From a candidate division WOR-1 bacterium RIFOXYB2_FULL_36_35 (GTDB lineage: Bacteria; Margulisbacteria; WOR-1; XYC2-FULL-46-14; XYC2-FULL-37-10): a DNA stretch of 47,151 nt. The notes beneath the pieces were generated by a model that saw only the letters and a list, made by a program, of their open reading frames with translations, searched no databases and had not been told where the DNA came from. The position numbers were made by a program, and so were the translations under genes. The stretch is from NCBI GenBank assembly GCA_001771505.1, contig MEUA01000029.1:1-47151 (forward strand). Reading direction: 5' to 3'. This document shows, piece by piece, positions 3,092 to 47,151 of the stretch (position 1 is its first letter; each line of letters begins with the position of its first letter).

Positions 3092-4773
3092 CTATTACGG
3101 GATAAAAACAATATATATCCGTTTATCTCTTTTATTATTTTAATTTGCTTTATCTTTTTAATCTCTTGTTCTTTTGATATTCCAACAAGAATGTCCGGAT
3201 TTTTTTTCCGTAAATTAGTTTTAAATGTTGATACAAGCTCTTCTCGGTCTGCAATATAGTATAGTGGCCCATCCATATTTGCATGTTTATCAAACAAGCT
3301 GTCTTGTATATAAAAATATTCCTGCCTTGGTTCTTCTCCTTTATAAACAATTGCTATTATTTTATCTTCTTTGTGTTCACTCCCAATTTCATTCATTGCC
3401 TGCATCAGTATCTTCGTCGGCATAGCTTTATTAATAAAAAGACCAGCCATAATTATAAAGATGATGTAAGATAACGTTGAGGCGGTTACAAAAGTTATTA
3501 TAGATTTTTCAACCTCTTTTTTAAACAAAAAGATTGTTCCTGCTATTAGTCCCGATGAAAAAACAACTAGGAAAGGGAGGGCTATTGGCTTAAAAGCTTG
3601 TATCTCTTTGGGAAAAGATATAAATAAATAGATAGTTACAATAGAAAAAAGCGGAATTAATAAGACTGTATTCAGCCATGCGGAAGTTAAAATATACTTC
3701 TTTAATTTTTCGCCCTCTTCCATAATATTTTCTAATAGGTTGGTAACAATTATCGCAAGCGCGGGAAATGCGGGCAGTATATATCTTCCAATTTTGTAAT
3801 TTAGCGAAAAGGCAAAAATTCCGATTGCGATAGCCGCCCAAACTAAAAAGAGTCTTTGATTTTTATTTTTGAAGCCATAGAAAATCGCGGGATATACAAA
3901 CCCGCCCCAAGGCGCAAAAAGTAAAAATATTTGCAAAAAGTAAGAATAAAAATCATATTGAGGCGCTATTGTATTTAAGTTTCCAATGATATCGGTTGGC
4001 CTAAAAAATCTCAAGAAATTTCGCAGGAAGAAGAGATTTGCAAATGGTTGGCCAAGGATTTTGTATTCAATAATAAACCAGGGAGCTGCGATTGTAAGAA
4101 ACAGGAGCGTTGACATAAAGAGATGAAAAAGATTTGTGTGGATTGGTTGTGAGTTATGGGTTTTGTCGAAAGTTGTGAGAGTAAGAAATTTTAAGATTAT
4201 TAAGGCGCCAAGTGGAATTGCAATACCCACAGGTCCTTTTGTCAACAGAGCCAACGCCAACGCAATAGAAAAAATGTAATAATAAATTGGAGATGTAGTG
4301 GTTGCGCAATATTTTGTGCCATTTAATCGAAATATGCAGTAAAAAGAGGCTGTTATAAAAAAGGTCAGCGGGATATCAAGCATTGGTGTTCTTGTTATAT
4401 AAAAAAATTGGCAGGATAGCATTAGGATTAATCCCGCCAAAAGGCCTCCCCGCCTCCCGAAAAGTTCTCTCCCCATTAAATATGTTAATATTACTGTCCC
4501 TATAGCTAACAGCGAATGCCAAAGGGATAGCGCAAACTCATTTATGCCAAACAGCTTAAATGAAACTGCCATAAACCACATTGCAAGAGGAGGTTTATCG
4601 ATGATATCTCCCGTGTTGACAAATTTTAGCGTTATAAAGTCTCCGCTTTTTATTATATTTTTGGCGATGGTCGCGTAAAAGGCTGTATCTCCATCTATTA
4701 TCGGGATTAACTGCGCAAAAAGCATGAATAATACAAAACCTAAGGCTGCTAACGCGAGGATATCTTTTTTCAT
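3079..4773 (-). CDS. ArnT/PMT-family membrane glycosyltransferase
   Basis: This 564-residue multi-spanning protein is of the GT83/GT39 type, which transfers sugars from polyprenyl phosphate donors outside the inner membrane. The first loop carries DGDTAFY (acidic catalytic-type residue) and then DKPPLAMWF, a hallmark of ArnT-like enzymes. About ten to twelve hydrophobic helices follow, and a soluble C-terminal domain starts near residue 470. Its ATG overlaps the stop of the upstream heptosyltransferase-like gene by one base (TAATG), so the two are translationally coupled. The acceptor is probably a lipid A-like or other envelope glycolipid (inference from the cluster). Confidence 0.85.
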   Translation of the reverse strand: MKKDILALAALGFVLFMLFAQLIPIIDGDTAFYATIAKNIIKSGDFITLKFVNTGDIIDKPPLAMWFMAVSFKLFGINEFALSLWHSLLAIGTVILTYLMGRELFGRRGGLLAGLILMLSCQFFYITRTPMLDIPLTFFITASFYCIFRLNGTKYCATTTSPIYYYIFSIALALALLTKGPVGIAIPLGALIILKFLTLTTFDKTHNSQPIHTNLFHLFMSTLLFLTIAAPWFIIEYKILGQPFANLFFLRNFLRFFRPTDIIGNLNTIAPQYDFYSYFLQIFLLFAPWGGFVYPAIFYGFKNKNQRLFLVWAAIAIGIFAFSLNYKIGRYILPAFPALAIIVTNLLENIMEEGEKLKKYILTSAWLNTVLLIPLFSIVTIYLFISFPKEIQAFKPIALPFLVVFSSGLIAGTIFLFKKEVEKSIITFVTASTLSYIIFIIMAGLFINKAMPTKILMQAMNEIGSEHKEDKIIAIVYKGEEPRQEYFYIQDSLFDKHANMDGPLYYIADREELVSTFKTNLRKKNPDILVGISKEQEIKKIKQIKIIKEINGYILFLSRNSYSP

Positions 4774-6188
4774 TATTGTGAGCTCCTTATATAATTGTTA
4801 ATTAAAATTTTTACTGAAAAATCTTTTTGTTCTTTTTCATGTAGAAGCATTGGGGGAATTGGCAGATATGGTGTTGCCAAAAACCTCGCGATTTTTAATG
4901 CGGTTGGGCAATGAACGCCTACCCAGTGTATAATATTTATATCTTCTTTTATCATCTGTTTCATAAGTTTGATAGGACTTGCCGCCATGCCTATTTCCAC
5001 GGCGTGATAGCCAGCGACCGAAAGTTCGCGGATTATTTCCTGCCTATTGGTAAAAACATTGATTGATTTTTTTAACCAATCAGCCTTTGATTCTGGTATG
5101 GTCTTATTCCCGCGGTTTTCCATAAGAGTTTTAATTCCTGCAATGACATCTTCCACAGAAATTGCTTTTAAGCAGTCTTCAAAAGGGCATGCTTTTGGGA
5201 GACACTTTTGTGAACAGTTTGTTGATTTTCTTATGATAACATTAGTTGTTGCCCAAGGCCCCCATTCTGTCGGCTTTACAAATTTAGTAGGGAATATTGC
5301 TACTGTTGGAATTTTTAACGCTGCTGCTATGTGAAGAGGGCCAGTATCTACTCCTATATATAGATTGTATCTGGATGTTATTGCTATTAATTCTTCTAAA
5401 TTTGTTTTATTAACCAGGTTTATAAGTTTATTTTTACATAATTGTATTATTTTTTGTGAAGAAGAAAGATCTTTTTTACTTCCTGTTAATATAATTTTTG
5501 ATTTTTTATTTTCTATCAAGTAGTCGATAACTTTCGCGTAACGATCGGGAAGCCAAGCTTTGTTCCCTTTCCCCGTACCTATATGAATTCCGACAACAAA
5601 ATCATCTGGTTTTAGCTGATATTCTTGTTCAAATTTTGATCTCAGCTCATAATTCGGCTTAATTTTAAGAGACACAGGATTTTGCGGTAGATTATTCACC
5701 CCTATTAGGAAATCGGGGTTAATTTCTGGTTTTCCCGTGAATAAACGGGGTGAAATTTCAAGAGGGGAAAGAAGGAGAATATTGCGTTCTGTTTCGTGAA
5801 GTGTTAAATCATTCCACCTGCAGTTCCCTCTTATATTATAAAAGGGGATTAAAAGCGGTTTTGATATATCTCCGAGCCGATATTTTATTTTTGCAAGTTT
5901 TGCAAGTAGAGCATAATGGAATTCATTATAAAAGTGGACTGAAAGATCAAATTTTTTTCTTTGAATAAACCTGTAAAGCCTTATCTTTTTTGTATCTTCT
6001 ATGATTTCGTTTATGTCGGGATTGTTTATGAAAACTCCTTTTGTATAGGGACTGCACAAGACAGCTATGTGGCTGTTTGGAAATTTTTCCCTTACAAGAG
6101 AAATAGCAGGTGTTATTAGCACACAATCGCCGATTGCGTCGGGACGGATTATGAGGATTTTCTTGATTTGATTGGCTTCTATTCTCAC
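4773..6188 (-). CDS. GT9 (heptosyltransferase-like) glycosyltransferase with C-terminal extension
   Basis: Residues 9-350 match the ADP-heptose:LPS heptosyltransferase fold. They show KILIIRPDAIGDCVLITPA at the start, a GIHIGTGKGNKAWLP motif at the donor domain, and GVDTGPLHIAAALKIPTVAIF near residue 275-295. Two oddities stand out. Residues 144-166 are encoded by a palindromic repeat (5691-5758) and look like an in-frame insertion between SPLE and LPQNP. Residues about 370-471 form an extra domain I do not recognise. The start is GTG, because no in-frame ATG is near and a stop lies just upstream. A MITE relic abuts the 5' end. The gene is coupled to the ArnT-like gene. Confidence 0.85.
   Translation of the reverse strand: MRIEANQIKKILIIRPDAIGDCVLITPAISLVREKFPNSHIAVLCSPYTKGVFINNPDINEIIEDTKKIRLYRFIQRKKFDLSVHFYNEFHYALLAKLAKIKYRLGDISKPLLIPFYNIRGNCRWNDLTLHETERNILLLSPLEISPRLFTGKPEINPDFLIGVNNLPQNPVSLKIKPNYELRSKFEQEYQLKPDDFVVGIHIGTGKGNKAWLPDRYAKVIDYLIENKKSKIILTGSKKDLSSSQKIIQLCKNKLINLVNKTNLEELIAITSRYNLYIGVDTGPLHIAAALKIPTVAIFPTKFVKPTEWGPWATTNVIIRKSTNCSQKCLPKACPFEDCLKAISVEDVIAGIKTLMENRGNKTIPESKADWLKKSINVFTNRQEIIRELSVAGYHAVEIGMAASPIKLMKQMIKEDINIIHWVGVHCPTALKIARFLATPYLPIPPMLLHEKEQKDFSVKILINNYIRSSQ
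5691..5758. repeat. CCCCGAT-type palindromic element inside a GT9 gene
   Basis: The segment has the family ends (ATTATTCACCCCTATTAGG and AATAAACGGGGTG). Its middle, GGGGTTAATTTCTGGTTTTC, closely matches the intergenic copy at 25572-25630 (GGGGTTGATTTCTGATTTCA). It is fully open in the gene's frame and encodes about 23 residues. Confidence 0.75.
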
Positions 6189-6199
6189 ACCTCAATTTT

Positions 6200-6243
6200 G
6201 GGACTGTTGTGTAATGCCACCCCAGACTAAAGTCTACAGTCCT
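6200..6243. mobile_element. Short MITE derivative (GGGACTGTTG end)
   Basis: It begins with GGGACTGTTGTGTAATG, the MITE terminal repeat. It then has half of a different inner palindrome (GCCACCCCAGACTAAAGTCT) and ends in ACAGTCC, complementary to the start. It is 44 bp, so probably a deleted copy. It lies 12 bp upstream of the GTG start of the GT9 gene, where a leader or promoter would be expected. Confidence 0.55.
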
Positions 6244-6752: not shown

Positions 6753-6782
6753 TTCACCCAGATTATGATAATCGGGGTTCAT
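6753..6782. repeat. CCCCGAT-type palindromic element at a gene 3' end
   Basis: TTCACCCAGATTATGATAATCGGGGTTCAT is a near-perfect palindrome of the family. On the minus strand it supplies the last residues (EPRLS) and the TAA stop of the glycosyltransferase ending at 6763. (Described here by its two arms: TTCACCCAGATTAT and ATAATCGGGGTTCAT.). Confidence 0.75.
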
Positions 6783-9610: not shown

Positions 9611-10816
9611 TTATTTTACCTCATCTTGAATATATTGAGAAATTTGGTTTACTGCCCCTCCCTTGTCCATCCTCTCTTTGCCTATTTCTGATATGTGGTT
9701 ATATCTTGCAGCATCATTTAAAATTGCAACTGTCTCTTTTGCTATGGCCGTCCATAGTTGCGCCATTTTACCCCGATTATTCATAGACGAACAGAATTCT
9801 CGCAGAGTGTTGGAAATTTTCCCAGGTATGAATCCCGATTTTCTAATCGGGGTGAATAATTGGGGTTTATGGGAGGGTTCAACCAACGTTAGAGCATCTC
9901 CCAATAATTCTTTTTGCGCAAGGGCAAATTTTTTGTTGTATTGCGAGCCTCTACTTAAAAAAGAGATAACCGGCTTGCCGATTCCCGCGGCTTGCTCATT
10001 GCCGGTTCCCGACAGTCCGATTATGATGTCCGCATTGTAAATTAAGGTTTCGAAGGATTGGGGTTGCATTTGTTGGGGCGAATTGCAATACGCTTTTACG
10101 GATTTGCATGCTACCAAAAATCGGAAATTTTTATCAATTTTCGACAATTCTTTCGCAATTTTTCCAAAATCTTCAATATTTTTTGGTATATCTTCTTTTC
10201 TTGTTCCGGGAAGAAAACCTATGATCTTTTCACCATCTTTTTTCTCAATTATTTCATAACTTCCAATCCCGTCCATCAATGGGTTTCCCTTGTAAACCGC
10301 ATTAATACCATCTTTTTTAAGGGAATTTGATGTATGGGCATCTCTTGCAAAAACAATCTTTGCGTATTTTTTTAATAGCCACTTTTCCCATGGAGTGTAA
10401 TTGTATCCAAATGTTTTGTAATAGTCTGATTTGTTTACTCCTACAAATATAAAGGGGATTTTTGTAATCAATGCTGCAAAGATTGGCACAATATCTCCAA
10501 TTGCTACAACAAGGTCAAATTGGCCCCTTAATTTTTTTAAAGTTTTTATTTGCAAATACAACAGGCCAAGAAGACCGCTTATAATATCTTTTGGCAAGGC
10601 TAACAAATTTCTTGCTGAAAATCCTCCACTGGGAAGAGATTTTCTGGGGCCGAGAAGGTTTATCGGTTGGGACGGTTCGCGAAACGCCCCTACAACGGCG
10701 CCATCCCCAACCATTGGCATGACGCTGACATCAATATCCGTTGGCAATTTTTCTATTATTTTTGCGGCTGTTTGGTCTTCTCCATGACCGTTTGTAATAA
10801 ATAATATTTTTTTCAT
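9611..10816 (-). CDS. LpxB-related glycosyltransferase (lipid-A-disaccharide synthase-like) with three repeat-derived insertions
   Basis: The N-terminus MKKILFITNGHGEDQTAAKII and the motif LLGPRKSLPSGGF match the 'lipid-A-disaccharide synthase-related' family. A GLSGTGNEQAAGIGKPVISF donor loop lies near residues 265-285. Three stretches look foreign: residues 41-50 (a GGGGCG...CGCCCC-type palindrome at 10667-10696), about 242-253 (a GCGAATTGCAATACGC palindrome near 10060-10095), and 317-350 (a 100-bp palindromic element, 9769-9868). All three keep the frame, so the gene stays open for 401 codons. Whether the protein still works is unknown; retention in the operon suggests it may. Confidence 0.8.
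   Translation of the reverse strand: MKKILFITNGHGEDQTAAKIIEKLPTDIDVSVMPMVGDGAVVGAFREPSQPINLLGPRKSLPSGGFSARNLLALPKDIISGLLGLLYLQIKTLKKLRGQFDLVVAIGDIVPIFAALITKIPFIFVGVNKSDYYKTFGYNYTPWEKWLLKKYAKIVFARDAHTSNSLKKDGINAVYKGNPLMDGIGSYEIIEKKDGEKIIGFLPGTRKEDIPKNIEDFGKIAKELSKIDKNFRFLVACKSVKAYCNSPQQMQPQSFETLIYNADIIIGLSGTGNEQAAGIGKPVISFLSRGSQYNKKFALAQKELLGDALTLVEPSHKPQLFTPIRKSGFIPGKISNTLREFCSSMNNRGKMAQLWTAIAKETVAILNDAARYNHISEIGKERMDKGGAVNQISQYIQDEVK
9769..9868. repeat. 100-bp CCCCGAT-type palindromic element, in frame inside the LpxB-like gene
   Basis: It is about 92% identical by eye to the intergenic copy at 13893-13992, sharing the inner segment ATTCATAGACGAACAGAATT and the arms around CTAATCGGGGTGAATAAT. 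It encodes about 34 residues of the surrounding protein without a stop on the minus strand. Confidence 0.85.
10060..10095. repeat. Short GGGGCG...-type palindrome inside the LpxB-like gene
   Basis: The segment contains TTGGGGCGAATTGCAATACGC, a near palindrome centred on ATTGCAAT. It encodes part of the Gln-rich CNSPQQMQPQS stretch. It resembles the other GGGGCG-type insertion at 10667 in the same gene. Confidence 0.45.
10667..10696. repeat. Short GGGGCG...CGCCCC-type palindrome inside the LpxB-like gene
   Basis: The arms GGGACGGTTCGCG and CGAAACGCCCC are imperfect complements around TTCGCGAA. It encodes VVGAFREPSQ (residues 41-50), placed where relatives run directly from the 'GDG/GEG' turn to the 'GP-x-K-x-LPSGGF' motif. 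Confidence 0.5.
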
Positions 10817-13848: not shown

Positions 13849-13892
13849 GAGATAATCTGCTCTTACACTTTACACCTGTTTTCTCTTTGAGT

Positions 13893-13992
13893 TAACCCCG
13901 ATTATTCATAGACGAACAGAATTCTAGCAGAGTGTTGGAAATTTCCCCAGGTATGAACCCCGATTCCCTAATCGGGGTGAATAATCAGGGTT
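13893..13992. repeat. 100-bp CCCCGAT-type palindromic element (intergenic reference copy)
   Basis: It runs from TAACCCCGATTATTCATAG to CGGGGTGAATAATCAGGG. It lies between lpxB and corA, and its right edge overlaps the corA stop codon. It is nearly identical to the copy inside the LpxB-like gene. Confidence 0.85.
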
Positions 13993-14983
13993 AAAACCAA
14001 TGTTTTTTTCTGAAGAACAAAAGCATTGAAAAAACGACAATCAGGATTAGAGCCCAAATTGAAAAATAACCGTATCTCCATGTGAGCTCGGGCATATAGT
14101 GAAAATTCATTCCATAGATGCTGGAGATGAATGTGAGGGGCATGAATATAGTAGAAAAAATCGTAAGCACCTTCATTACTTCGTTTATTTTATTGTTTAC
14201 AGTAGATAAATAGACTTCCAGCATTGATGCAGTCATATCGCGGGATGTTTCCAGGTTTTCCATGATTTGCACCGTATGATCATACACATCGCGGATGTAA
14301 ATACGGGTTCCCGGTTGAATTAAGCGTGATTCACCCCGCTGAAGGGAGTTTAAAACTTCTCTGAGAGGCCAAATCGATTCCCGAATAGACAACATATCCC
14401 TTCTGAGTTTTTGAATATGCAAAAGGAGCTCTTTTTCTCCGCGATTAAAAATCTCCTCTTCAAGAAGCTCAACTTTTTCTCCATACGATTTTAAAATATT
14501 AAAATAATTATCGATCAAAGCATCTATTATACGATAAGCAAGATAGTCGGTGCCGGATTCCCTCAATCGGGTTCCTCCCGTCCTAATCCTTTTTTTAGTG
14601 GGCTCTAAAATCTGGTCAATTGTTGATCCATGACTGAATGTGATAACGTAATTATCCCCCAAAATTAAATCCACTGCTTCGGAAGAGACTTCGTCGGTTT
14701 CGGCCGAATAGGACATGGTGGTCAAAAGTATAAAAAGATAATTGCCGTGGTCTTCGATTTTTGACCGTTTGTTTTGTTCCAAAAGACTTTCACGGACTAG
14801 TTGATGGAGATTGTAGCAATTGCTTATTTTTTCCAGTAATTGTTCGGAACTGACATCTTTAACTTCGATCCATGTGATTCCGCTTTTATCTTTGTAATTT
14901 ACACATTCATCAAAAGAGGCCTTTTCTTCGGAATATTTATCTTTGTCGTAGTTATAAATTGTAATTTTTTGTTCGCTTATCAT
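13991..14983 (-). CDS. corA: CorA-type Mg2+/Co2+ transporter
   Basis: This 330-residue protein has the CorA architecture: a large cytoplasmic alpha/beta domain, a long helix (residues about 200-270) and two C-terminal membrane segments. The selectivity motif YGMNF is at 290-294 and the positively charged tail is RKKHWF. It would form a homopentameric channel for Mg2+ in the inner membrane. Its ATG overlaps the thrC stop by one base, an operon pairing without an obvious metabolic link. The stop codon borders a palindromic repeat. Confidence 0.93.
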   Translation of the reverse strand: MISEQKITIYNYDKDKYSEEKASFDECVNYKDKSGITWIEVKDVSSEQLLEKISNCYNLHQLVRESLLEQNKRSKIEDHGNYLFILLTTMSYSAETDEVSSEAVDLILGDNYVITFSHGSTIDQILEPTKKRIRTGGTRLRESGTDYLAYRIIDALIDNYFNILKSYGEKVELLEEEIFNRGEKELLLHIQKLRRDMLSIRESIWPLREVLNSLQRGESRLIQPGTRIYIRDVYDHTVQIMENLETSRDMTASMLEVYLSTVNNKINEVMKVLTIFSTIFMPLTFISSIYGMNFHYMPELTWRYGYFSIWALILIVVFSMLLFFRKKHWF

Positions 14984-16114: not shown

Positions 16115-16207
16115 TAACCCCGATTATAGAAATTTGCCAACTGCCTACTTGAACCCCGATTAGGATAATCGAGGTGAATTCTGTTAGTCTATGAATAATC
16201 GGGGTTC
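16115..16207. repeat. CCCCGAT-type palindromic element upstream of hisS
   Basis: It starts TAACCCCGATTATAG and ends TATGAATAATCGGGGTTC, with an inner ACCCCGATTAGGATAATCGA palindrome. It follows the heptamer array directly. Confidence 0.75.
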
Positions 16208-21025: not shown

Positions 21026-21064
21026 TACCCCGATTATTCACCCCGATTAGGATAATCGGGGTTT
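21026..21064. repeat. CCCCGAT-type palindromic element between FHA gene and lysC
   Basis: TTACCCCGATTATT and CACCCCGATTAGGATAATCG followed by GGG form a 1.5-copy version of the palindrome. It sits 16 bp upstream of the lysC -10 box. Confidence 0.7.
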
Positions 21065-24791: not shown

Positions 24792-25574
24792 TTGACTGTG
24801 AAGTTTGATCAATACCTTGAAAATACTATAACTCGAAATAACAGCCAGCTTTGTATAGGGTTGGATATTGATGTTTCTAAAATAGGTAAAGATTTCCTCA
24901 AAGACGATGACCCCATTTTTAAATTCAATAAATATATTATTGATGAAACGTGCGATCTTGTTTGTGCTTATAAACCCAACATAGCTTTTTATGAATCTTA
25001 TGGATTATACGGTCTCGAAGCTATGATAGAGACTATAGATTATATACAGCAAAAAAACATACCTGTTATTCTAGATGCCAAAAGAGGAGACATAGGGCAT
25101 ACTGCGCATGCTTATGCAAAAGCTGTTTTTGATGTTTATAAGGCGGATGCCGTTACGGTTAATCCTTATATGGGGCATGATTCAATAGAGCCGTTTTTAG
25201 AATATCAGGAAAAAGGGATTTTTGTTCTATGTTTAACCAGCAATATAGGGTTTAGAGACTTTCAGGCATCAGACAAAGAATCTCCTTTGTATCTTTCCGT
25301 GGCAAAGCATGTTAAAGAGTGGAATCATTACCATAATTGTGGTTTGGTTGTTGGCGCTACAAGTCCTGAAGAATTAAAAGAGATTAAAAAAATAGTTGGA
25401 GATATTCCTATATTAATTCCTGGCGTGGGGGTTCAGGGGGGAGATCTTGAATTATCCGTTAAATATGTAGGCAAGCAGGCCGTTATCAGTGTTTCCAGGA
25501 GTGTTATCTATACTTCAAACCCTAAAAGAGCCGCAGAAGTTTTTAGAGATAAAATCAATTTAGTTTATAGTTAA
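24792..25574 (+). CDS. pyrF: Orotidine 5'-phosphate decarboxylase
   Basis: This 260-residue protein is of the longer PyrF class (type 2). Early motif LCIGLDIDV is present. The catalytic loop is VILDAKRGDIGHTAHAYAKA, containing the Asp-x-Lys-x-x-x-Asp set near residues 96-101. A phosphate-binding IPGVGVQGG follows near 215. It makes UMP from OMP. The start is uncertain: TTG at 24792 or GTG at 24798, with AAAGG at 24783-24787 favouring neither clearly. The stop TAA is the first three bases of a palindromic repeat. Other pyrimidine genes in the window (pyrR, pyrB) are not adjacent. Confidence 0.93.
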   Translation: MTVKFDQYLENTITRNNSQLCIGLDIDVSKIGKDFLKDDDPIFKFNKYIIDETCDLVCAYKPNIAFYESYGLYGLEAMIETIDYIQQKNIPVILDAKRGDIGHTAHAYAKAVFDVYKADAVTVNPYMGHDSIEPFLEYQEKGIFVLCLTSNIGFRDFQASDKESPLYLSVAKHVKEWNHYHNCGLVVGATSPEELKEIKKIVGDIPILIPGVGVQGGDLELSVKYVGKQAVISVSRSVIYTSNPKRAAEVFRDKINLVYS

Positions 25575-25630
25575 CCCCGATTATCATAATTGGGGTTGAT
25601 TTCTGATTTCACCGTTAATAATCGGGGTTA
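25572..25630. repeat. CCCCGAT-type palindromic element after pyrF
   Basis: It begins TAACCCCGATTATCATAATT, giving pyrF its TAA stop, and ends AATAATCGGGGTTA. Its centre matches the copy inside the GT9 gene. Confidence 0.8.
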
Positions 25631-37532: not shown

Positions 37533-38558
37533 ATGGCTGAAATCTTCCCACAGAGTTTATCGATATATCATTATGAAAGTCAGGATAGGGTGACAATGGA
37601 TAAGATAAAAGGGACTGTTTGCCTTGTGGAAACACAAAGAAATATAACAACAACTGCTAGACTGCTTAATAAGTTTCGCTTAATCGGCAGAGGGCATATG
37701 CTTGATAGACTTTTGAGAGAAATGGCAAGTAATAATAATTTAAAGATTAATTTAACTGTTATGGGCGAACGGACTACTGCGGATGTAGCAAATGGAACTG
37801 ACTTATGTATAGGAATTTCTCTTTATGCGAAAGGATTAAGAGCGGCAGGAATTATAGGTAATAAACATGAAGATAGTATGGTACATTTTGAAAAAGGTAT
37901 ATACCCCAAAGGGTATTTCAGGCGTTTTTTTAGTATTTTAATAAGTGATACTGTTGCCGATATGCAATTTGCATTTGCTGCGATGGGCGTTTCTTTAAAG
38001 ATCGATAATGATACTTTCTCTCCTTTTAATAGAGGCGATTTTTACCGGAAAATAAATTGGGGGAAAGATTTTAATAGAGATTCAGTTATAGGAAGAGGAA
38101 TAGGCTATATCTTTGTTGCCGGGATTTTAGGTGGATTAACGGGATTAGCATACAGTTTTTTTTATGAGAATTATGGGTTTATGCGTTATGCGGGAGTAGG
38201 CTTTTTGTCGGGAATTGCTTTGCCTTTACTTGTTTGCGAATCATATTTGTTGATGAGAAATATGTATAGAAACTTTACATTTGATTCTAAATTTATACAA
38301 TTTATAGAACTTTTTGAAAAAAAAGTTTCAGACAGACAAATTAAAAAAGCAGCTGGCATCCTTAATTGTATAGATGATTTTAACGCATTGGGAATAATTT
38401 TAGACAAAGTACATAAAGATAATCACGGGCGATTGATAAAAAAATTATCTTGTTATAATAGTGGTAGTGGGGGAGGGATATCTCATGGCAATGGTGGTAG
38501 TAGTTGGCATGTGTCAGGAGACTCAGGTAGCAATGATGTAATATATTGGTCAGATTAA
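37533..38558 (+). CDS. Hypothetical membrane protein (341 aa) with Gly/Ser-rich tail
   Basis: I do not recognise the family. Residues 1-185 look soluble. Two hydrophobic segments lie near 188-208 (GIGYIFVAGILGGLTGLAYS) and 215-237 (FMRYAGVGFLSGIALPLLV), forming a hairpin. A helical region follows, and the last 30 residues are Gly/Ser/His-rich (GSGGGISHGNGGSSWHVSGD), which is unusual and possibly disordered or metal-binding. Repetition of Thr/Asn at 40-45 is minor. The TAA stop is supplied by a palindromic element. It shares a two-membrane-helix layout with the next gene. Confidence 0.6.
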   Translation: MAEIFPQSLSIYHYESQDRVTMDKIKGTVCLVETQRNITTTARLLNKFRLIGRGHMLDRLLREMASNNNLKINLTVMGERTTADVANGTDLCIGISLYAKGLRAAGIIGNKHEDSMVHFEKGIYPKGYFRRFFSILISDTVADMQFAFAAMGVSLKIDNDTFSPFNRGDFYRKINWGKDFNRDSVIGRGIGYIFVAGILGGLTGLAYSFFYENYGFMRYAGVGFLSGIALPLLVCESYLLMRNMYRNFTFDSKFIQFIELFEKKVSDRQIKKAAGILNCIDDFNALGIILDKVHKDNHGRLIKKLSCYNSGSGGGISHGNGGSSWHVSGDSGSNDVIYWSD

Positions 38559-38582
38559 CCCCGATATAGATAATCGGGGTTA
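38555..38582. repeat. CCCCGAT-type palindromic element at a gene 3' end
   Basis: TTAACCCCGATATA and GATAATCGGGGTTA face each other; the TAA is the stop codon of the gene ending at 38558. Confidence 0.75.
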
Positions 38583-38592
38583 TTTATACTAG

Positions 38593-38711
38593 GGGACTGT
38601 TGCATAATGGTCATTCCCGTGAAAACGGGAATCTATTTTTCATAAAACAAGATGGATCCCCGCTTTCGCGGGGATGACAAATTACAAAAACTGTCATTAC
38701 GCAACAGTCTC
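38593..38711. mobile_element. 119-bp MITE, copy 2, with 5-bp target duplication
   Basis: The ends GGGACTGTTGCATAATG and CATTACGCAACAGTCTC are inverted repeats. The element is flanked by ACTAG on both sides (38588-38592 and 38712-38716), a clear target-site duplication. The interior is the same two palindromes as copy 1. Confidence 0.9.
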
Positions 38712-38799
38712 ACTAGGTTTAAGTAGCATTTTAGAATTCGAAAAGACCTGTCCTGCGCAAAGCTAAGGGGCCTATGTTTTACTATATTGGAGGAAAAGG

Positions 38800-44630: not shown

Positions 44631-44657
44631 TAAACCCCGATTATGATAATTGGGGTA
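44631..44657. repeat. CCCCGAT-type palindromic element between dnaE and hisI
   Basis: TAAACCCCGATTAT and GATAATTGGGGTAA face each other; no gene overlaps it. Confidence 0.75.
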
Positions 44658-44701: not shown

Positions 44702-44729
44702 CATTAGTCATTAAGTCATTTTTAATTAT
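44702..44729. repeat. 7-bp tandem array upstream of hisI
   Basis: Units CATTAGT, CATTAAG, TCATTTT, TAATTAT; its end overlaps the old -10 box of hisI. Confidence 0.55.
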
Positions 44730-44732
44730 AAT
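44727..44732 (+). promoter_or_regulatory. Original -10 box of hisI, now split from the gene by a MITE
   Basis: TATAAT abuts the MITE. Its last five bases are the target duplication repeated on the other side of the element. Confidence 0.5.
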
Positions 44733-44851
44733 GGGCTTGTTGCCTAATGATAGTTTTTGCAATTTGTCATCCCCGCGAAAGCGGGGATCCATCTTGTTTT
44801 TTGAGAAATAGATTCCCGTTTTCACGGGAATGACCATTACGCAACAGACCC
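44733..44851. mobile_element. 119-bp MITE, copy 3, inserted upstream of hisI
   Basis: The element has inverted ends (GGGCTTGTTGCCTAATG and CATTACGCAACAGACCC). It is in the opposite orientation to the other two copies and is flanked by ATAAT on both sides (44728-44732, 44852-44856). Confidence 0.9.
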
Positions 44852-44874
44852 ATAATATAAGGAGGCTAATTTTT

Positions 44875-45234: not shown

Positions 45235-46170
45235 ATGAAGGATTTAATATCCATCCATGATTTAACCTCCTTGCAAGTTGAGGAGATTCTTAGCCTTGCC
45301 TGCGACCTTAAACAGAAACAGAAAGATAAAGAGAAGCATGAATATCTTTGGGCTAAATCCCTTGTTATGATTTTTGAAAAACCTTCAACCCGTACTCGGG
45401 TCTCTTTTGAAATAGGGATGTGGCAACTTGGAGGTTTGGCTATCAATCTTGATCAGGAAAATATCGGGCTTGGAGCCAGAGAATCGATAGGCGATGTGGC
45501 AAAAACGCTTTCCCGCTATGCTGACGGGATTTTGATCCGCACGTTTGAACATAAAAAAGTTATCGACCTTGCAGAATCAGCCAGCGTTCCTGTTATAAAT
45601 GGGTTATCTGATCTTCTTCATCCGTGCCAGGCGCTGACGGATGTTTTTACTATAAGGGAGAAAAAGGGGTTAGAAGGGGCAAAAAGAGATGGAAAAGGAT
45701 TGAAGGTGGCGTATATTGGAGATGGGAACAATGTTTGCCATTCCCTCATGTTTGCATGTGCCAAAGTCGGTATTAATTTGACTATTGCGGTGCCGGTTGG
45801 TTATGAGCCTGACGAAGAAATTGTTAAATTGGCTTTTGCTGATGCAAAGATGGCGGGGATACAGATAGACATTTTAAATGATCCAATAATGGCGGCCAAA
45901 AATGCCGATGTTATTTATACGGATGTTTGGACCTCGATGGGGCAAGAGGCAGAAAGCAGAAAGCGGAAAGCGGATTTTGAAAAGTTTCAAATCAATAGAG
46001 AGTTGGTCAAATTAGCAAAGCCTGATTTTATCTTTATGCATTGCCTTCCCGCGCATCGTGGCGAAGAGGTGACCGATGAGGTTGTTGATTCCACAAATTC
46101 CGTTGTCTTTGACCAGGCCGAGAATCGCCTGCATGTCCAAAAGGCTATATTAACGATTTTGTTGAAATGA
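45235..46170 (+). CDS. argF: Ornithine carbamoyltransferase
   Basis: This 311-residue protein has FEKPSTRTRVSFEIGMWQLGG (carbamoyl phosphate site), LLHPCQALTDVFT (HPCQ, typical of OTC), and FMHCLPAHRGEEVTDEV (ornithine-binding HCLP). It makes citrulline in arginine synthesis or, in reverse, supports arginine fermentation. Residues about 239-248 (ESRKRKADFE region) are encoded by four 7-bp units. No other arg gene is adjacent. Confidence 0.95.
   Translation: MKDLISIHDLTSLQVEEILSLACDLKQKQKDKEKHEYLWAKSLVMIFEKPSTRTRVSFEIGMWQLGGLAINLDQENIGLGARESIGDVAKTLSRYADGILIRTFEHKKVIDLAESASVPVINGLSDLLHPCQALTDVFTIREKKGLEGAKRDGKGLKVAYIGDGNNVCHSLMFACAKVGINLTIAVPVGYEPDEEIVKLAFADAKMAGIQIDILNDPIMAAKNADVIYTDVWTSMGQEAESRKRKADFEKFQINRELVKLAKPDFIFMHCLPAHRGEEVTDEVVDSTNSVVFDQAENRLHVQKAILTILLK
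45949..45976. repeat. 7-bp tandem array inside argF
   Basis: Units GCAGAAA, GCAGAAA, GCGGAAA, GCGGATT. Confidence 0.65.
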
Positions 46171-46253
46171 ATTTTTTGTGTAGGGAGTCCTCTTTTTTTG
46201 TTAAAAATCATCTGAAATTTTTATAAAAACATTAAGAAGATTATCTGATAAAA

Positions 46254-46280
46254 TTCACCCCGATTATCTTAATCGGGGTT
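46254..46280. repeat. CCCCGAT-type palindromic element upstream of the last gene
   Basis: TTCACCCCGATTAT and CTTAATCGGGGTT face each other; it ends 20 bp before the ATG at 46300. Confidence 0.75.
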
Positions 46281-46299
46281 TCTAATAGGAGGGGAAAAA

Positions 46300-46932
46300 A
46301 TGATAAATTCTTCAACACGAGGGAGCAACGTCACTCCTGATTTTCCAAAACTTTTTAAGGATATTCGAACGCTATTTCACAGTCGCGCGTTAGGGCTAAG
46401 AATAGAAGGAAAAGTGCAAGCTGCTAGATTGCTTGTTGGCGCTGGACACGAAACAGAATTTTTGAAATTTGTAGAGAGCTTGCCGAGGCAGCTTAGTCTC
46501 AGGGATATATGTTTTTTACCTGCGAGATCAATGGAAGCAAAGGGAGAAAATAGTCTCCCTGTTAATGTGGGAATAGGAGTTGGGCAGGGGATGACATGGA
46601 CAGAGTTTTCTGTTGCGATTAGAGATAATAATTGGGGGAGATCAGAAACACCTGAAGCTTATCTTGAAGGATTAAGGACGAACTCTAGTCTTTTAAGCGA
46701 AACAATAACCTTTGATGCCGGGATAGCTTATGACTCTCCAAGTCAAAGAGAGTCAATGCATGGATACGATCAATTGGCTGAAGATGAGCAAACCTTGTTT
46801 TATTGTGTTTTGAAGCAAAGGCTTACAACAATAGAGCGAGCGATTGCCAAGGGCTTGTCATTAGCTCCGGGAGATCAGTCATTGAGACGCGTGGAACAAG
46901 ATGATGGCTTCAAAAGTCAGCGTCAACAATAA
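46300..46932 (+). CDS. Hypothetical protein (210 aa), no recognised family
   Basis: AGGAGGGG lies close to the ATG, so the start is firm. The protein is soluble with no signal peptide. Residues 15-60 are helical (DFPKLFKDIRTLFHSRALGL), 85-110 hold a glycine-rich LPVNVGIGVGQGMTWTEFSV, and the C-terminal helix (FYCVLKQRLTTIERAIAKGL) ends in a charged tail. It lies alone after argF. I do not recognise it. Confidence 0.6.
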   Translation: MINSSTRGSNVTPDFPKLFKDIRTLFHSRALGLRIEGKVQAARLLVGAGHETEFLKFVESLPRQLSLRDICFLPARSMEAKGENSLPVNVGIGVGQGMTWTEFSVAIRDNNWGRSETPEAYLEGLRTNSSLLSETITFDAGIAYDSPSQRESMHGYDQLAEDEQTLFYCVLKQRLTTIERAIAKGLSLAPGDQSLRRVEQDDGFKSQRQQ

Positions 46933-46973
46933 AAGAATATTCTAAGAATTTTATCTTTCTTGACCGAATTATG

Positions 46974-47151
46974 GGGCTGTTGCGAAATAGGCACCCCACA
47001 TTAAAATGTGGGGAATTTGTGAGTAAATATTCCCCAGACTTAAGTCTGGGGTGGCATTATACGATGGTGTATAAATAGTTGTGTAAATTGTCATTCTGAC
47101 GAAAGTCAGAATCCATTTCTCTAGTAAAACATAGATTCCTGCTTCCGCAGG
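46974..47151. mobile_element. MITE-family composite, cut by the window end
   Basis: It starts GGGCTGTTGCGAAAT like the MITE. It then has two different palindromes (CCCCACATTAAAATGTGGGG; CCCCAGACTTAAGTCTGGGG), a GTGGCATTATACGATGG stretch, and a third palindrome ATTCTGACGAAAGTCAGAAT. The right end is not reached. Confidence 0.6.

Follow-up and report, generated by a model that had tools for sequence, protein, structure and literature searches.

Small palindromic elements inserted in frame in an LpxB-like gene and dispersed through a WOR-1 genome

The window analysed here (the whole 47,151-bp stretch of DNA, from a candidate division WOR-1 bacterium) carries on its minus strand, at 9611-10816, an open reading frame for a 401-amino-acid protein that matches Pfam LpxB (E 6e-7) and whose structural model has GT-B-type enzymes as its best matches in a structure search. 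Inside this gene lies an imperfect palindrome with TTTA on either side. The original prediction, made from the letters alone, was that a palindromic element sits in frame in this glycosyltransferase gene and is about 92% identical to a copy at 13893-13992; the frame is indeed free of stops throughout the ORF, and the identity computed for 9767-9867 against 13892-13992 is 92%. The predicted dimensions, 100 bp and 34 residues, must be revised as follows: the palindromic insert is 95 bp long (9771-9865) and stands between TTTA repeats, so that element plus 4-bp duplication give a net gain of 99 bp, or 33 residues. The features of the gene are:

9611-10816, minus strand: gene for the 401-aa LpxB-like glycosyltransferase (Pfam LpxB), with an insertion at about residues 319-350 that is missing in orthologues
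9771-9865, minus strand: 95-bp element in the LpxB-like ORF, read in the gene frame as PQLFTPIRKSGFIPGKISNTLREFCSSMNNRG; 40 genomic copies
9767-9770, unstranded: target-site duplication copy 1, TTTA (TAAA in the gene sense)
9866-9869, unstranded: target-site duplication copy 2, TTTA
9833-9852, unstranded: 20-bp palindrome nested in the 95-bp element, with flanks TGAA/TGAA (TTCA on the other strand)

Alignments of the LpxB-like protein with its relatives stop by about residue 313-320 in nearly all cases (52 of the 57 relatives with a match), and in the closest relative, G002, whose protein is 77% identical, and a few others a second aligned segment begins at about residue 357. In multiple alignments the inserted residues are missing from all relatives; nine named WOR-1, Saganbacteria or Margulisiibacteriota genomes are among the orthologues without the insert, and by these nine the host genome falls in WOR-1/Margulisiibacteriota. 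Could the 33 residues nevertheless be native, or have converged locally with the repeat? An open frame and good conservation of the flanking protein agree with that reading, but orthologues sharing the residues, which the original prediction had named as the sign of native sequence, do not occur, and the insert is therefore not native; moreover, the 95-mer has 40 near-full copies of 84-94% identity in its own genome (G000), many of them non-coding and with stops. We give a native origin practically no chance. An AlphaFold2 model built with the same orthologues has a mean pLDDT of 84, and its sole stretch with pLDDT below 50 is residues 316-334, inside or beside the insert; because the low values are confined to this stretch, the insert is plausibly a flexible surface loop, as had been anticipated.

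Ten places in the window had been listed as copies of one family. They do form a single family, although of differing size classes, and only those at 9769 and 13893 are 95-mers. The copy near 5691 is also in frame in a gene (glycosyltransferase family 9, GT9; ORF 4773-6188), a point that the first reading of the sequence had not mentioned. The other copies in the window are:

13896-13990, unstranded: 95-bp copy, TTAA/TTAA; the right TTAA (13991-13994) contains the stop of a CorA-like gene, 13991-14983 (Pfam CorA)
5686-5750, minus strand: ~65-bp copy whose outer end has decayed (its position set by inspection), in frame in the GT9 (heptosyltransferase-like) gene; peptide ...PRLFTGKPEINPDFLIGVNN...
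6757-6777, unstranded: 21-bp element, TTCA/TTCA
16118-16204, unstranded: 87-bp composite copy
21028-21061, unstranded: 34-bp copy, TTTA/TTTA
25575-25627, unstranded: 53-bp copy, TTAA/TTAA; the left TTAA (25571-25574) is the stop codon of ORF 24792-25574
38559-38579, unstranded: 21-bp copy with a degenerate left end, TTAA/TTAT; the left TTAA (38555-38558) is the stop of ORF 37533-38558
44635-44655, unstranded: 21-bp copy, TAAA/TAAA
46258-46278, unstranded: 21-bp copy at a site common to the sister-genus genome G002 (alignment)

The expectation that the genome would hold many more copies was borne out: the family has about 300 in this 1.95-Mb, 67-contig genome, including the 40 near-full 95-mers. 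Exact matches to the half-site ACCCCGATTA number 546 in the genome and those to a reversed control pattern 4, which together with the 40 long copies excludes chance, and 197 palindromes of 21 bp were found at up to 3 mismatches. Clusters were counted in a sample of stretches covering 1.16 Mb of the genome, with one mismatch allowed per end (CCCCGATTA, TAATCGGGG). This sample contains 182 separate clusters of at most 140 bp with no transposase gene inside, and they fall into size classes of 20 (n=14), 21 (49), 34 (19), 53 (9), 71 (11), 82 (10) and 95 bp (21). The ends are CCCCGATTA…TAATCGGGG, and terminal inverted repeats of the form CCCCGATTA(TTCA)...(TGAA)TAATCGGGG run across all the size classes.

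Identical 4-bp flanks border 99 of the 182 clusters, where 44.2 are expected and 62 was the maximum in 10,000 shuffles. By sequence they are TTAA (59), TTCA (13), TAAA (11), TGAA (8), TTTA (6), TCAA (1) and TTGA (1). Non-palindromic flanks give 40 direct matches and only 8 inverted ones, so the flanks are a TNNA target duplication that lies outside the palindrome. The 83 clusters without identical flanks may reflect decay, composite units or mis-chosen ends.

The larger units are built from the smaller. The 95-mer is laid out as CCCCGATTA-TTCA-[ CCCCGATTAGGAAATCGGGG ]-TTCA-TACCTGG…TATGAATAATCGGGG, that is, as a 71-mer into whose left inverted repeat a 20-mer of the same family has been placed at TTCA, with the TTCA duplicated. 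This nested parse fits 24 of the 27 units of the 95 class (the inner TTCA flanks are identical in 18 of those), and nested forms occur in more than one 71-mer subfamily. One filled/empty pair is exact: removal of 24 bp from the 95-mer at L109:14501-14595 leaves a sequence that matches the 71-mer at L104:12716-12786 in 71 of 71 positions. The 24-bp gain is the only difference between the two, so the 20-bp palindrome acts as a unit of insertion. The 82-mers and 34-mers look as if one inner and one outer end had been used, and some have matching flanks of their own, a structure which points to mobilisation of any pair of ends in the proper orientation. An origin of the 34-mers by tandem duplication fits some of them, but is probably not the general route, the inner 4-mer of most being different from their outer flank.

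Palindromes can in principle also be formed or spread by replication slippage, hairpin-primed template switching or gene conversion, with no integrase and with flanks that merely reflect a sequence preference. The very small size of the units (20-21 bp), the 34-mers that could partly be local duplications and the failure to find a transposase among four DDE families (below) all agree with such a process, but the flank matches are direct rather than inverted, preference alone predicts 44 of them rather than 99, and the filled/empty pair has gained exactly 20 bp plus 4 bp. We consider this explanation unlikely, and take the elements to be inserted with target duplication.

Other proteins were predicted to carry the element as well, and they do. 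Counting as an in-ORF copy at least 12 codons inside an open frame of at least 120 codons, we found 16 distinct elements within ORFs in the 1.16 Mb, and all 16, in either element strand, are read in phase 0, CCC-CGA-TTA (PRL/PRF…NRG). By Pfam, the hosts include the LpxB-like protein, two GT9 transferases, a tRNA-dihydrouridine synthase, an HtrA/DegP-like protease, an NtrC-like regulator (insert between the AAA lid and Fis domains), a DUF2229/BcrAD protein, a histidine kinase and a thioredoxin-like protein (insert near the N-terminus); a TPR protein has two copies, and several large proteins have no assignment. In most hosts the duplicated target is visible in the protein as a repeated E…E (GAA) or K…K (AAA). 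The insert's absence from orthologues is shown for two hosts, the LpxB-like protein and the DUF2229/BcrAD protein, whose G007 orthologue (65-69% identical) lacks 33 residues at the insertion site. There are 14 further in-ORF copies; among them, the histidine kinase 20-mer (L125) has an ambiguous position in the homologue alignment, and the GT9 copy in L080 has homologues that are just ~25-34% identical. Element-like peptides were also seen outside the sampled stretches, in long frames (295 and 499 aa) at G000:C40:58030-58146 and C40:41940-42023.

Which copies are found in genes depends on their length. Taking the net insertion as element plus 4 bp, the 20-, 53-, 71- and 95-mers add 24, 57, 75 and 99 bp and keep the frame, whereas the 21-, 34- and 82-mers break it. 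Half of the 20-mers (7/14) and none of the 21-mers (0/49) lie in ORFs (p = 6e-6), and overall the proportions are 13/70 for frame-keeping lengths and 3/112 for other lengths (p = 6e-4). One of the three exceptions, called at 5699-5750 in the window, is better read as a frame-keeping 65-bp unit with a decayed outer end. ORFs cover about 87% of the sampled DNA, and most elements must therefore have been kept out of genes. For the 71- and 95-mers phase 0 is the only open frame; the 20-mer has four of its six frames open, yet all seven in-gene copies are in phase 0 (binomial p = 0.008). The contrast between 20-mers and 21-mers is a natural experiment on the insertions that proteins tolerate.

In-gene copies might instead be skipped by translational bypassing, as are the byp elements of yeast mitochondria, and so be absent from the protein. 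Bypassed hairpin inserts in coding sequence do exist (PMC6649704), and the copies here fold well as RNA; bypassing, however, requires neither frame nor absence of stops, while here 16/16 copies are stop-free in one phase and the out-of-frame classes are nearly absent. We regard bypassing as very improbable and the copies in genes as probably translated.

Outside the interiors of ORFs, 28 elements with TTAA/TTAA flanks lie exactly on the T|TAA of a gene and 24 lie elsewhere, as against 171 unoccupied TTAA sites on stops and 1464 elsewhere (odds ratio 10 for elements, p = 6e-14). Stop sites are occupied at 36 of 215 for TTAA, compared with 3 of 210 for TAAA and 3 of 105 for TGAA. Duplication of a TTAA target leaves the gene its stop, and copying of the TAA in this way is a simple route by which an element can insert at the end of a gene with the stop preserved. 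The element units fold well as RNA (z -4 to -7). The enrichment at stop codons reflects either target choice or retention, a hairpin after the stop being harmless or useful at the 3' end of an mRNA.

Among 142 other genomes, clear family copies were found only in G002, which belongs to the same family and another genus and has two. The copy at 46258-46278 has a counterpart there in the same place and with similar flanks, so that the family is older than the split from G002 or the block has been exchanged. The 95-mer core had no match in scans of IMG/VR or genome_contigs, where its own genome was perhaps left out. The surrounding block at 45235-47065 (aspartate/ornithine carbamoyltransferase and the next gene) shares with G002:C29 (L092) ~93% DNA identity around the intergenic hairpin and 95% protein identity, well beyond the 77% found for the LpxB-like protein, and a recent exchange of the block with this different-genus genome is possible.

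What moves these elements? A target duplication of constant length together with inverted ends points to a DDE-type enzyme, and the element is probably best explained as a member of a non-autonomous, MITE-like mobile family, which would be served by such an enzyme in trans. The transposase would recognise about 9-13 bp of each element end and would cleave TNNA targets, TTAA by preference, with a stagger of 4 bp. It would be indifferent to the sequence between two properly oriented ends, and larger new elements would therefore arise through self-insertion. Most insertions into genes would be purged; the survivors would be those that kept the frame, predicted to be translated as an extra and probably disordered loop, and those that fell on a stop codon of the TTAA form, whose duplication would preserve the stop.

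Searches for this enzyme gave the following. None of the DDE transposase families PF01609, PF13701, PF00665 and PF13751, the four searched, has a match in the genome (assembly ~96% complete), and the lack of PF13701 also speaks against derivation from an IS1380 or piggyBac-like (TTAA) element. No long element with family ends and a transposase gene was found among candidate long units between matching ends: by Pfam these hold shikimate dehydrogenase, an ABC ATPase, a magnesium-chelatase-like protein and other genes, and a 320-aa frame in the L112 candidate has no Pfam match. The mobilising enzyme may have been lost, may be of another family or may lie in the few per cent that the assembly lacks. 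The weakest step of the account is the 20-bp unit, on which two transposase subunits, each bound to its own end, are difficult to accommodate. Tentatively, the 20-21-bp palindrome may be mobile as a complete unit in its own right, which would rank with the smallest target-duplicating elements known; it would be moved by an undescribed enzyme, would build larger protein-coding elements by insertion into its own ends, and would be either directed to the stop codons of genes or retained there. A mobile unit of 20 bp is the most unusual feature of the family, and its insertion with target duplication challenges notions of the minimum size of a mobile element.

REP and REPIN sequences are 20-40-bp palindromes near gene 3' ends, some of them intragenic (PMC3733652), and the present elements share that size, placement and occasional position inside genes. 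Could they then be REP-type palindromes moved in single-stranded form by a RAYT or an IS200-like Y1 tyrosine transposase? The extragenic 20-21-bp palindromes near gene 3' ends and their doublet-like arrangements do resemble REPs (PMC3733652, PMC3116915), and the genome holds one Y1 gene. This gene, however, has an in-frame TAA, its hairpins are different, and no family end lies within 1.5 kb of it (3.4-kb locus); the listed units have no GTAG or CGTC tag; and the family lacks a linked RAYT. Y1 enzymes are not known to make target duplications, whereas 4-bp direct repeats are clear here. Membership in the REP/RAYT system, with its sole candidate gene not flanked by family ends, is accordingly rejected as improbable, and we retain the MITE-like interpretation. 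The Y1 gene (degraded, IS200-type, PF01797) is at L115 1474-1840 (G000:C41).

The family has inverted repeats, target duplication and many copies, as is usual for MITEs; an autonomous partner was not found, and in this class a partner with the same ends is not always present. Among bacterial MITEs that carry ORFs (ERIC, the 107-bp Correia element and YPAL), in-frame fusions are known, and most such MITEs terminate in TA and measure ~100-200 bp (PMC2229807). The WOR-1 family resembles them in being small and non-autonomous with terminal inverted repeats and a target duplication (PMC2229807), and differs in its 4-bp TNNA duplication and in units as small as 20 bp.

In behaviour the family is closest to the Rickettsia palindromic elements; the original prediction drew this parallel, and we uphold it for behaviour only, claiming neither membership nor homology. 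Those elements are ~100-150-bp palindromic repeats found in frame in unrelated conserved proteins and between genes, and their insertions are presumed neutral (PMC10969869, PMC2229807). The likeness to the Rickettsia and Wolbachia elements is in-frame insertion into unrelated proteins with absence from orthologues (LpxB-like, DUF2229). The WOR-1 family, in contrast, is from another phylum, not from Rickettsiales, and its sequence looks unrelated; it has a clear 4-bp target duplication, an item entered as '?' for the Rickettsia elements in a 2007 review (PMC2229807); it is built of mutually inserting 20-21-bp units; and it shows strong TTAA stop-codon placement. Protein-coding palindromes are best known from Rickettsia; the WOR-1 family adds an independent example from a remote, uncultured lineage, in which the traces of insertion can still be read (target duplications, filled/empty pairs and a clean frame filter). 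In Nostoc, small dispersed repeats of 21-27 bp, likewise very small, are regarded as mobile.

Several other repeats were noticed. A second dispersed repeat of ~120-140 bp, containing GGGACTGTTGC..., is present at 1864-1985, 38584-38722 and 44722-44860 (88-94% identity); its ends recur on a short palindromic form at ~L112:6973-7030, and one copy seems to interrupt a CCCCGATTA element at L086:5226-5314. A 49-nt inverted repeat pair at 6187-6235 and 47036-47084 (GGGACTGTTGTGTAATGCCACCCCAGAC..., 76% complementary) is perhaps a third small repeat family. A look for a similar element family in G001, the other family member among the genomes, gave a different short palindrome (TCTCCCCCTT...AAGGGGGAGA); G001 has a short palindrome of its own, TCTCCCCCTTnnnAAGGGGGAGA, flanked on one side by TGTCCC/GGGACA and dispersed at L188 2135, 9435, 19040 and other positions.
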